Shown in pieces: positions 4,394-13,838 of a stretch of 41,376 nucleotides of DNA. Numbering within the stretch: position 1 is the first letter of the stretch; every line of letters starts with the position of its first letter. The DNA lies in the NCBI GenBank assembly GCA_024640785.1, contig JAHEEI010000003.1, positions 1 through 41,376 on the forward strand, in the 5' to 3' direction. The position numbers and the translations under genes were made by a program. The notes under the pieces are model-generated. The model made no database searches. It was not told the origin of the DNA and saw nothing but the letters and a program-made list of their open reading frames with translations. The DNA comes from Pseudomonadota bacterium. GTDB lineage: Bacteria > Desulfobacterota > WTBG01 > CAIYCZ01 > CAIRTM01.

Positions 4394-4723
4394 ATGCCAA
4401 TATATGAGTATCAGTGCAACAAGTGTAATGCAGCCTTTGACTGTGTAGTGATGAGCGTATCAGAAAAGTTTGAGCCTAAATGTGAAAAGTGCGGAAGCAC
4501 AGATGTGAAAAAACTGGTTTCCCAGGTCAGGTATATGTCAGGACCGGAAGAAAGCTGCCTTGCTTCAAACGTCGAAAACAGGTTATTGCAGTCAATGGGT
4601 GGAAAAGTAGATTCGAATATTCAAAAAGAAATTAAAGAACTTTCTAAACAGGCAGCCAAAAGAGGTAAAAAACGTTATGCCAGTATGATGGATACCGGCA
4701 AGTCAGAAAATATTGATTATTGA
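4394..4723 (+). CDS. FmdB family zinc-ribbon protein
   Basis: MPIYEYQCNKC...CEKCGS motif; start moved to ATG 4394, preceded by GGAG. Confidence 0.88.
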   Translation: MPIYEYQCNKCNAAFDCVVMSVSEKFEPKCEKCGSTDVKKLVSQVRYMSGPEESCLASNVENRLLQSMGGKVDSNIQKEIKELSKQAAKRGKKRYASMMDTGKSENIDY

Positions 4724-9206: not shown

Positions 9207-9743
9207 GATCCTGAGAACTTTCCGCGCGAAACATGTAATTACTTGCAAAGATAAAGAAATTTCTAAATTTAACATCAAGTGGTTAAATCATATTACCATC
9301 AAATATCCTGCAAAAAAGTTATTTTTTTATCCCGAATTTTTTAGAATTAAATTATCAATATATTGTATGAATCATATGTTTAAACTGCATATGTTGAAAT
9401 TCACAACAGCTGTTAATTGACTGTGGAATACTTTGTTATAACAGCATATTTGTATTTAAAATAAAGGGGTTCAAGTAAACTGTTCCAAAATGTAACACTA
9501 TTTTAAATAAAGTAATATCAGTTAGTTATGATTTTAGTAGTCAGTTGACATGATAATTCTAAGCAACATAAAAAAATAAAGTAATTTCAAAAACTAATGT
9601 TGATAAACAGTTTATAATTTTCGAAAAAGTATAAATTTAAAATATTTGAATTTTCTTATACCTGTTTTTAAAATAGATGTTTATAAAAATTAAAGATAAT
9701 ATTTTTTCCTTGACGCAGAGGATATAAATTATTAGATTTGACT

Positions 9744-10400
9744 ATGAATCCAAATTCAAAAATTTCAGGTTATACAATGAGAAAAGATAAAAATACTTTA
9801 ATTTTAAACGCTGCAATTAAGATATTTGCAGAAAAAGGGTATCAATATGCAACAATAGCTGAGATCGCTAAGGAAGCTGCTGTTTCGAAAGGACTAATTC
9901 ATTTTTACTTTGAAAGTAAGCTTGATCTTATGCTTTCTGTAATCCTGAGTTTTCTTGAGCATGTTAATGAGATAAATGCTAAAAAATTAATTGGTTCTAT
10001 CAGTCCCGTAGATTCATTGAAGGCAGTTTTTGAGACTTTTCAAGAGCTTTTATTTAAAGATTCGGATAACCTTTATAAGGGGAAGATTTTAAATGAGGGT
10101 CTTCCTGAGGTGGATAAAATTAAAAGCAAAGTGCTTAAAAATAAAAAGGCGGCTATTGATGAACAAAACAGGAAACTATTTGATACTATTGATAAGCTTA
10201 TCCATGAGGGACAGAAGGCTTCACTACTAAATAGAAATCTGAAACCTGAAATCATAAGGCAGATATTGGGTGGGTCAAGTCAGTTTCTAACCACGGGAAT
10301 GTATCTGCACCCATTCGGCAAGGGCGGACTGGGCTATAATAAAAGAGATGTAAAAAAAGCCATGAATATGTTGATAGATAGTTTTAGAGCTGCTAAATAG
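9744..10400 (+). CDS. TetR/AcrR family transcriptional regulator
   Basis: N-terminal HTH ILNAAIKIFAEKGYQYATIAEIAKEAAVSKGLIHFYFESK. Confidence 0.93.
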   Translation: MNPNSKISGYTMRKDKNTLILNAAIKIFAEKGYQYATIAEIAKEAAVSKGLIHFYFESKLDLMLSVILSFLEHVNEINAKKLIGSISPVDSLKAVFETFQELLFKDSDNLYKGKILNEGLPEVDKIKSKVLKNKKAAIDEQNRKLFDTIDKLIHEGQKASLLNRNLKPEIIRQILGGSSQFLTTGMYLHPFGKGGLGYNKRDVKKAMNMLIDSFRAAK

Positions 10401-10453
10401 AAATACTAAGGCTTTTATAAATCAAAATAAATTCAGAGGAAGGGAAGATTATC

Positions 10454-12229
10454 ATGATTAAGGGAGGATATTTTGGAAGATATTTAAAAATTGATCTTAC
10501 TAATAGGAGCTTTAAAGAAGAAGAACTCTCCAAAGATATAATGAATAAATATCTTGGTGGGCGCGGTATTGCAACTAAGCTCCTTTTCGATCTTCAGGGA
10601 GGTAAAATAGATGCTCTTTCTCCGGGAAGCAATTTAATTATATTTACCGGACCTGTTGGCGGGACGAATGTACCGGGAAGTTCAAGGATATTTTTTGGGA
10701 GTAAATCACCGCTCAGTAATGCTATTAATACAACCAGTATGGGTGGTATTTTCCCAAATATGTTTAAAAAGACAGGTTACGACGGTGTTGTAATTCAAGG
10801 AAAAGCTGATGATAAAACCTGGATTCATATTTCTCCCGGTAATGTTCAGTTTCATTCAGCATCAGATGTTTGGGGTCTTAAAACCTCAGATGCTGAAAAA
10901 ATTATCAAAGAAAGAGCAGGTTCTAAATCTAGTGTTGCACTAATTGGTCCGGCTGGAGAGAAACAAGTTCTTTTCAGTGCTATTGTGTCAGATACACGGA
11001 CTGCAGGAAGAGGTGGAACCGGCGCTGTTATGGGTTCAAAAAACCTAAAAGCAATTGCTGTTTCGGGTGAGGTTAAAGTTCCAGTTGCAAATAAAGATGC
11101 AATGGATAAAATATCGAAAAAAATAAGAGAAGATCAGGCTGAGAATCCGAGCGCTCTGGGGATGAACATGAACGGCAGTGCCGGTCTGGTGAGCCCGGTA
11201 AATGCCATGGGTGCGCTTCCGACAAAGAATTTTCAGCAGGGGACTTTTGCGGGTGCCGATGAGATGGGAGGCTATGCCATTACAGAAAAGAACAGGGTGA
11301 AAGCGGTTGCCTGTGCTTCCTGCACGGTCGCCTGTTCTTTAATTGCGGAAGCTAAAAATGGTAAATATGCCGGTACCATAACCGAAGGCCCGGAATATGA
11401 ATCAGATGTAATGCTCGGTTCAAATATCATGGTTGATGATACGGATGTTATTGTCTGCGCAAATCATCTCTGTGATGAATATGGAATCGATACCATCTCA
11501 ACCGGAAATGTGATTGGTTTTGCTATGGAGTGCTATCAGCGCGGGCTCATCACTGAAAAAGATACCGGAGGTCTTGCTTTAAACTGGGGTGACGGTGATA
11601 TCGTTCTCGAACTAATTAATCTTATCGGTAAAAATGAAGGGTTTGGTAAACGGCTGGGTCAGGGTGTTTTGAGATTCTCTAAGGAGATCCCTGGCTCTGA
11701 GTCTTTTGCCATGCACGTAAAGGGACTTGAGCTTGCTGCCTATGACCCAAGAGCTGTTTTTGGGCAGGCTTTATCTTATGCAGTTGCACCTCGCGGGGGT
11801 GAACATGGACGCGGCGGATATATGATCGTAGAGTTTTTTCAGGCTGATGCGGACCTGTACACTCATGTGGGCAAGGCTGAAAAAGCAGCAAAACTGTCAG
11901 AGGCTGCTGCAATTTATGATATAGCCTCCGTTTGCAGTTTTAACTTCATACCGACCTCTGATTTGCCTGAATTAATTAATTCTATAGTAGGTACAAATTA
12001 TACTGAGGAGGATTTAAGACAAATTGCCCGGAATGTTATGACCCTTGAACGTCAGTTTAATAACAGAGAAGGCTTTACCAGAAAAGATGATACTCTGCCG
12101 TCACGTCTTTTAAATGAGCCTTTACCCGATGGAATGGCTGAAGGTAAAAAGGTTGAGGGTCTTGATATAATGCTTGATGAGTATTATGCAATTCGCGGCT
12201 GGGATAAAGAGGGTGTGCCTCTGCAATAG
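10454..12229 (+). CDS. Tungsten-type aldehyde:ferredoxin oxidoreductase family protein
   Basis: N-terminus GGYFGRYLKIDLTNRSF...YLGGRGIATKLL; cluster ligands CASCTVAC and a later Cys (DIASVCSFN); 591 aa. Confidence 0.93.
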   Translation: MIKGGYFGRYLKIDLTNRSFKEEELSKDIMNKYLGGRGIATKLLFDLQGGKIDALSPGSNLIIFTGPVGGTNVPGSSRIFFGSKSPLSNAINTTSMGGIFPNMFKKTGYDGVVIQGKADDKTWIHISPGNVQFHSASDVWGLKTSDAEKIIKERAGSKSSVALIGPAGEKQVLFSAIVSDTRTAGRGGTGAVMGSKNLKAIAVSGEVKVPVANKDAMDKISKKIREDQAENPSALGMNMNGSAGLVSPVNAMGALPTKNFQQGTFAGADEMGGYAITEKNRVKAVACASCTVACSLIAEAKNGKYAGTITEGPEYESDVMLGSNIMVDDTDVIVCANHLCDEYGIDTISTGNVIGFAMECYQRGLITEKDTGGLALNWGDGDIVLELINLIGKNEGFGKRLGQGVLRFSKEIPGSESFAMHVKGLELAAYDPRAVFGQALSYAVAPRGGEHGRGGYMIVEFFQADADLYTHVGKAEKAAKLSEAAAIYDIASVCSFNFIPTSDLPELINSIVGTNYTEEDLRQIARNVMTLERQFNNREGFTRKDDTLPSRLLNEPLPDGMAEGKKVEGLDIMLDEYYAIRGWDKEGVPLQ

Positions 12230-12325
12230 GCTATAATAGCATTTTTAAAAAGAAAACGTTTGTAGAGATTTTTATAAATACTGGTTCAAGCACACAAAAC
12301 TGTTTAAACTTAAAAGGAGAACAAA

Positions 12326-13789
12326 ATGTATCCATATGATTCATTAAGAGATTATGCAGAGGATTTGGAAAAACAGGGGAAACTGATAAGAATAAATAAG
12401 ATGGATCAGGACAAGTATGAGATGTCCGCACTGGTCTATAAACTAAATGACAGGCTGGACTATAAAGCACCGGCCTTCCTGGCTGAGAAAACGAAGATTA
12501 ATGATAAAGTCTATGATTCACCGGTTATCGGCAATCTTTTAAATAGTTTTGGGACAGTTGCCCAGTGCTTTGGTGTAGAGAAGATTAATGACAATCAGGG
12601 CGAGATGTATGATGCCGCGGTAGCACGAATTATGTCTTTTCAGGATAAGGAGATGAAGTGGCAAAGCATTGAACCTGTGATTGTTGAAAAATCGGCGGCC
12701 CCCTGTAAAGAGGTTATATTAAACGGTGAGGATGCAGACCTGGGTAAATTTCCATGGATTAAGAATAATCCTGCAGACGGAAGTCAATATATAAGCGCCG
12801 GTTCAGTTATCTTGGAAGATGTTGACCTTGGGAAAAATGTGGGAACCTACCGGATGCAGGTAAAAGGTCCGCGCAAGGTTGGGGTATATTTTACAAACCA
12901 GAGCCATGGATATAAGTTTATGATGCAGGCTCTTGAACGCGGTGAAGAAAGTGTAAAGGTCTCTGTTGCTGTGGGTATAGACCCGATTTCATGGATGATG
13001 AGCAGCACACGCCTTGCTGATTTGGGTGAAGATGAATTTTCAATTTCCGGTGGATTTAGAGGTAAGGCGGTGGAACTTGTTAAGAGTGAAACCAATGATC
13101 TTAATGTTCCAGCCCATGCAGAATTCATCATTGAAGGGGATATTTCAATGGAAACAGCAGAGGAGGGCCCATACGGTGAAATGCTGGGATATGTGGGAAA
13201 AAAGGTCTGGACCTTTGAAATTGATATAAAGACGATTACTCACAGGGAAAAACCCTGGGTATATAATTTGTGGCCCGGTATTGGCGGCGCATACTTAACC
13301 CTTCCATGGGAGGTGGGTCAGTTCACTAAATTAAAACAGATCATGCCGAACCTGGTTAAACTGCATACCCCACCTGCAACCGCATCCGTGGTTATTGCCT
13401 GTATTGATAAGAAACTTCCGGGTGAAGGTATTGAGGCAGGTATGATGATTCTGGGTTACCGGTTCATCGGTTTCAGCAAGAAAATGGCCATTATTCTGGA
13501 TAAGGATATTGATCCAACAGATTTAAACAGAGTAATTCAGGCGGTCGGTACCCGCTGGCAGCCTGATCCTGCAAGCCTGGTTGTTAAACAGTCTTTTCAT
13601 ATCCCTCTTGAACCCAGCAGTAAAGAGATGTTTTTAAGCAGCAAAATAGTCATTGATGCGACCCGGCAAATGGAAAGTGAAGGGGGGCCTGAGACTTACC
13701 CTTATGATAACCGCACCGTGCTTGAAGAAAGAGCTGAAGAAGCCTTTGATATCGTAAATAAAAGATGGGATGAATATTTTGGCAAATAA
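12326..13789 (+). CDS. UbiD family (de)carboxylase
   Basis: RBS AAAGGAG; conserved Arg in GTYRMQVKGP and the Glu pair region PAHAEFIIEGDI / EGPYGEMLGY; 487 aa. Confidence 0.92.
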   Translation: MYPYDSLRDYAEDLEKQGKLIRINKMDQDKYEMSALVYKLNDRLDYKAPAFLAEKTKINDKVYDSPVIGNLLNSFGTVAQCFGVEKINDNQGEMYDAAVARIMSFQDKEMKWQSIEPVIVEKSAAPCKEVILNGEDADLGKFPWIKNNPADGSQYISAGSVILEDVDLGKNVGTYRMQVKGPRKVGVYFTNQSHGYKFMMQALERGEESVKVSVAVGIDPISWMMSSTRLADLGEDEFSISGGFRGKAVELVKSETNDLNVPAHAEFIIEGDISMETAEEGPYGEMLGYVGKKVWTFEIDIKTITHREKPWVYNLWPGIGGAYLTLPWEVGQFTKLKQIMPNLVKLHTPPATASVVIACIDKKLPGEGIEAGMMILGYRFIGFSKKMAIILDKDIDPTDLNRVIQAVGTRWQPDPASLVVKQSFHIPLEPSSKEMFLSSKIVIDATRQMESEGGPETYPYDNRTVLEERAEEAFDIVNKRWDEYFGK

Positions 13790-13809
13790 TTTTATCCAAT
13801 GTTGATATA

Positions 13810-13838
13810 AAAGAGCCCTATATTAAACAGGGCTCTTT
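13810..13838 (+). terminator. Rho-independent-type terminator after the UbiD-family gene
   Basis: AAAGAGCCCT (13810-13819) ATATTAAAC AGGGCTCTTT (13829-13838), followed by an AT-rich stretch. Confidence 0.8.

Follow-up and report, generated by a model that had tools for sequence, protein, structure and literature searches.

Several known routes oxidize an aldehyde and then remove the resulting carboxyl group by means of a UbiD-family enzyme. For example, vanillin is converted to guaiacol by this logic, and furfural-type compounds are degraded through the furandicarboxylate decarboxylase HmfF, in whose pathway aldehyde oxidation precedes UbiD decarboxylation; to our knowledge, that oxidation is not carried out by a tungsten aldehyde:ferredoxin oxidoreductase (AOR). 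Single-subunit AORs use ferredoxin and need no adjacent partner subunit, and the reactions of both UbiD and AOR enzymes are reversible in principle. Here we describe a cassette in which a gene of each family follows a TetR-type regulator. Its parts belong to known families; the AOR–UbiD pairing itself was not found in the literature searched, whose coverage was incomplete. The window, i.e., the whole stretch of 41,376 nucleotides analysed, is the entire contig C299 of genome G000, an incomplete genome of 2.84 Mb in 305 contigs whose nearest named relatives are metagenome-assembled Thermodesulfobacteriota/Deltaproteobacteria. The three open reading frames run in one direction (Table 1), with gaps of 53 nt between tetR and the AOR gene and of 96 nt between the AOR and UbiD genes. 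A first-pass annotation of this DNA had placed the end of the cassette at a terminator, and folding agrees, giving a stable hairpin (-18.2 kcal/mol), though its T tract is weak (TTTATATATAA); a hairpin scan limited to loops of 8 nt missed this structure, whose loop is of 9 nt.

Table 1. Features of the TetR–AOR–UbiD cassette (window coordinates).
Feature	Position	Strand	Basis
Putative promoter, TTGACG-N17-TAGATT	9710..9738	+	Sequence; layout common to G004 and G005
Putative TetR operator, TTTGACTATGAATCCAAA	9737..9754	+	Degenerate copy of the G004/G005 palindrome
TetR-family regulator	9777..10400	+	PF00440; start from G004/G005 orthologues
AOR-family tungsten aldehyde:ferredoxin oxidoreductase, 591 aa	10454..12229	+	Pfam domains, structure matches, cysteines, tree
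UbiD-family prenyl-FMN (de)carboxylase, 487 aa	12326..13789	+	Pfam domains, alignment, structure model
10-bp hairpin then A/T tract, likely transcription terminator	13810..13838	+	Folding, z = -4.0

The AOR carries AFOR_N (231.8 bits) and AFOR_C (416.4 bits) domains along the whole protein, far above cut-off. The cluster cysteines C287, C290, C294 and C494 are present, and E316 and H451 align to E313 and H448 of the Pyrococcus AOR; all of these residues are invariant in six orthologues. Among solved structures, the AOR-type proteins gave 329–414 bits, whereas the class II benzoyl-CoA reductase BamB (4z3w), a member of the same superfamily, was the lowest of nine hits: its match covers just the first two thirds and reaches 146 bits, compared with 414 for AOR. 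By score, the enzyme would thus be of the single-subunit AOR type and not BamB or FOR, a placement resting on pairwise scores, the AOR tree holding no reference AOR, FOR or BamB sequences. A BamB-type ring reductase is rejected on the same scores, and the ring-redox chemistry that had been suggested for the locus is accordingly disfavoured. The orthologues of this AOR form one clade of 10 sequences (SH-aLRT 100), one in each of ten genomes, and are at least 63% identical to the window protein, the next paralogue being 44% identical. AOR-family genes are abundant in these organisms: 19 matches lie at 19 places in the 2.8 Mb of G000, 10–20 occur in each related genome with the cassette and 4–23 in most relatives of the class.

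The UbiD protein contains the UbiD (182 bits), UbiD_C (64 bits) and UbiD_N (34 bits) domains, and its residues R176, E280 and E285 are the equivalents of the Fdc1 Arg-Glu-Glu triad, invariant or nearly so in an alignment of 32 relatives. The earlier reading of TetR, AOR and UbiD genes in line, with catalytic residues in place, is therefore borne out by the reading frames, Pfam scores and alignments. The structure model (pLDDT 90.6) lies nearest to the vanillate decarboxylase VdcC, E. coli UbiD and HmfF. Its equivalog or exception scores are all under the cut-offs, namely 221 versus 650 bits for VdcC, 179 versus 496 for the menaquinone-type UbiD and 145 versus 788 for the E. coli-type UbiD, and the same holds for two phenylphosphate carboxylase subunits (110 versus 469 and 105 versus 565). 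Judged from its sequence, with every curated cut-off missed, the protein fits no characterised subfamily. Gamma- and alphaproteobacterial homologues of 38–44% identity belong to the same wider clade; no AOR was found near these, and their neighbourhoods (CoA-transferase III, acyl-CoA dehydrogenase, alpha/beta hydrolase and MFS genes) gave no clear substrate. UbiD genes of a distant subfamily are found three in tandem in an alphaproteobacterial metagenome-assembled genome (MAG; L069:2649-8412), and some gammaproteobacterial MAGs each have several of them. MFS transporter genes have also been observed near AOR or UbiD genes (L166:15143-16456; L041:10428-11984); of these transporters, that of the window genome reaches 258 bits against the magnetosome protein MamH, under the cut-off of 300.

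The first-pass annotation had remarked that no UbiX gene is adjacent, which is true in the window, and had suggested looking elsewhere for UbiX and tungsten-pterin genes. A UbiX gene was found on contig C67 (258 bits to PRK06029), MoeA on C194, and a TupA-like tungstate-binding protein on C284 (246 bits, under the equivalog cut-off of 400). With UbiX encoded on another contig and ferredoxin serving single-subunit AORs, the missing neighbours are no puzzle. The label "orphan" given to the cassette does not hold, since the genome has these genes and related loci add an SDR gene and, once, UbiX. The other UbiD of G000 scores as a menaquinone biosynthesis decarboxylase, and the cassette UbiD is therefore left for a special substrate.

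A UbiD search covering 58 genomes recovered close orthologues (61–76% identity) in G002, G003, G004, G005, G007 and G008. Second or partial copies are present in G006, G008, G009 and G010, and those of G012 and G014 are more distant. AOR and UbiD orthologues adjoin in G000, G002, G003, G004, G005 and G010. The pairing, whose loss in relatives had been named as a refuting observation, is thus kept in five further genera of this order, with TetR ahead in two. The gene order is TetR-AOR-UbiD in G000 and G005, TetR-AOR-UbiD-SDR in G004, AOR-SDR-UbiD-UbiX in G002 (UbiX directly after UbiD), AOR-UbiD in G003 and SDR-AOR-UbiD in G010. In the G010 operon (L065, about 4442-4447), an in-frame TGA, which may be an error or mark a pseudogene, lies within the UbiD gene, whose frame is cut by the contig end. 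Some junctions are tight, with an AOR–UbiD gap of 4 nt in G003 and tetR–AOR overlaps of 1 nt in G004 and 4 nt in G005. The commonest extra partner is the SDR gene, which seven relatives (G002, G004, G009, G010, G012, G013 and G014) have either adjacent to the AOR orthologue or within the same operon, and which is absent from G005 and the window genome.

The two enzymes might share a regulator and act on different compounds, for example in a TetR-controlled detoxification of mixed aldehydes and acids. Each gene is indeed found without the other in some relatives: the AOR occurs with SDR and no UbiD on the same contig in G009, G012, G013 and G014 (in G009 the UbiD lies on a separate contig, and G013 is without such a UbiD), and this AOR is missing from G006, G007 and G008, which do have the UbiD. 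AOR paralogues are, moreover, abundant. On the other hand, it is the same AOR orthologue each time, and not any of the 10–20 paralogues, and at some junctions the genes overlap or are separated by 4 nt, so that we regard separate substrates as unlikely. Since the same orthologue recurs among several to 20 AORs per genome, the recurrent pairing goes beyond chance, and the proposed coupling of AOR and UbiD gains support from adjacency in six genera, from several tight or overlapping junctions and from a promoter/operator layout common to three. In an unrelated Chloroflexi locus (L135), a UbiD lies together with an AOR and a ferredoxin-like gene in about 5 kb, which hints at more than one origin of the pairing.

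The regulator has a TetR_N domain (PF00440, 54 bits), and its orthologues in G004 and G005 are 54–59% identical to it. The first-pass annotation had the cassette begin at 9744, and the reading frame could be longer, with a start at 9738 or 9744, but the ATG at 9777 is preferred because it matches the starts of the orthologues in G004 and G005 and because the promoter and operator span 9710-9754. Upstream of tetR, the window, G004 and G005 have in common a TTGAC element, a spacer of about 17–18 nt, a -10 box and then a palindrome. In G004 (TTGGCCGTGAAGCCAA) and G005 (TTGGCCCTGTGGCCAA) the palindrome abuts the -10 box, and G005 has a second copy farther upstream. At the matching site, TTTGGCC-N4-GGCCAAA is perfect or near-perfect in both genomes; its core, TTGGC-N6-GCCAA, is perfect in G004 (4 of 5000 shuffles as good) and occurs twice in perfect form in G005 (9 of 5000). 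The window operator has four mismatches in 14 positions relative to the longer palindrome, with 35 of 2000 shuffles as good. The common layout suggests TetR autorepression: TetR would repress its own operon, with the substrate or an early intermediate as the probable ligand relieving repression.

Our preferred reading, to which we give about even credence, is a TetR-autoregulated catabolic operon in which the AOR would oxidize an aldehyde to an acid and the UbiD would decarboxylate that acid. In most related genera, the NAD-type SDR could supply the aldehyde (R-CH2OH to R-CHO); the AOR would then convert R-CHO to R-COOH, passing two electrons to ferredoxin, and the UbiD, with prFMN from the UbiX encoded elsewhere, would release R-H and CO2. 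R would be aromatic, heteroaromatic or alpha,beta-unsaturated; such an acid had been proposed earlier and follows from general UbiD chemistry rather than from features of this locus. Gene content, catalytic residues, conserved linkage and the common promoter/operator layout are observed; we infer the direction and sequence of the steps, that the UbiD decarboxylates instead of carboxylating, that the genes are co-transcribed, and which ligand TetR binds. What favours the oxidative direction is the setting of the nearest AOR paralogue clade (44% identity): in G004, G005 and G014 it adjoins an AMP-binding gene of the acyl-CoA-ligase type, where an acid would be made for activation; no such ligase adjoins the UbiD in the loci read. 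Near these paralogue loci (L218, L219, L220), Fe-S/FAD (Hdr-like) genes occur in G004, and similar ones in G014.

The operon might also run in reverse, the UbiD carboxylating an aromatic or conjugated compound and the AOR, together with the SDR, reducing the acid to aldehyde and alcohol. UbiD enzymes can carboxylate, as established for phenylphosphate carboxylase and HudA-type enzymes, and an AOR can reduce acids with low-potential ferredoxin. However, acid reduction spends reduced ferredoxin, the phenylphosphate carboxylase scores given above are far under the cut-offs, no phenylphosphate-type partner was seen, and no benzoate-CoA-ligase-type neighbour was noticed in the loci read. We therefore consider the reverse direction quite improbable.

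The cassette occurs in genomes with an unusual number of bilin-reductase family genes. Matches to PF05996 (ferredoxin-dependent bilin reductase, FDBR) number at least 14 above cut-off in G000 (contigs C179, C222, C128, C164, C257 and others) and 6–17 in 12 of 19 relatives, i.e., in 13 of the 20 close genomes. These FDBR-rich genomes are putatively anaerobic, non-photosynthetic Thermodesulfobacteriota MAGs; among 14 control genomes, only Synechococcus had a match, a single one. A profile of these proteins matches solved FDBRs (E 5e-27). The literature describes the known FDBR-related enzymes as depending in the end on O2 for function (PMC10151467). The cassette could be part of a larger network in which FDBRs, SDRs and PNPOx proteins also act on conjugated ring compounds, for example tetrapyrrole or bilin-like pigments. 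FDBR genes flank the UbiD in G008 (L044) and G014 (L048), and 11 of 20 genomes contain both FDBRs and a member of the UbiD clade (Fisher p = 0.004, ignoring relatedness). A protein of 247 aa without Pfam family adjoins AORs in six genomes (G000, G001, G002, G004, G012 and G013) and genes of the cassette in three (G003, G007 and G009); its top Foldseek match is red chlorophyll catabolite reductase (RCCR; E 6e-3). Against this network, however, that match comes from a poor model (pLDDT 55) and sequence searches gave the protein no link to FDBR, the FDBR genes of G000 are at most mildly enriched near AORs, and HutW/ChuW, tried as candidates for haem ring opening, gave nothing above cut-off. G005 has TetR-AOR-UbiD but no FDBR, 247-aa protein or SDR, and the link between cassette and FDBRs is therefore not obligatory. 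Taken together, membership in such a network is very unlikely. As a separate observation, AOR, 247-aa protein and PNPOx-type protein genes form a conserved module, with SDR in some genomes (L170:36-3542, L251, L252, L254, L255). Also very unlikely is a more specific version, an undescribed anaerobic pathway for conjugated ring pigments, e.g., chlorophyll- or haem-derived tetrapyrroles, in which SDR, AOR and UbiD would take a substituent of one carbon (CH2OH, CHO, COOH, H) off a pyrrolic ring while AOR-reduced ferredoxin would feed the expanded FDBR set.

Compared with known systems, the window AOR resembles the Pyrococcus furiosus AOR (1aor) and that of 9g7j in its full-length match (408–414 bits), cluster cysteines, E313/H448 equivalents and single subunit; it differs in having a UbiD as operon partner. 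Closest to the UbiD, by sequence and fold, is the solved structure of Sedimentibacter hydroxybenzoicus VdcC (7ae4/7ae5; 27–28% identity, TM 0.80–0.84), with the Arg-Glu-Glu motif in common, but the window protein is far under the NCBIfam cut-off, has a distinct insertion and C-terminus, both common to its own clade, and no VdcD was noticed. HmfF (6h6v) has the same fold at 26–27% identity. UbiDs of the AbcA and phenylphosphate carboxylase type are alike in belonging to the family within anaerobic aromatic metabolism, whereas the window UbiD is far under their cut-offs and no CoA ligase- or phosphatase-type partner was seen. Finally, the vanillin and furfural-type routes employ an aldehyde dehydrogenase where the cassette has a tungsten enzyme; the pairing of a tungsten AOR with a prFMN decarboxylase would let anaerobes strip the aldehyde carbon without O2 while gaining reduced ferredoxin.
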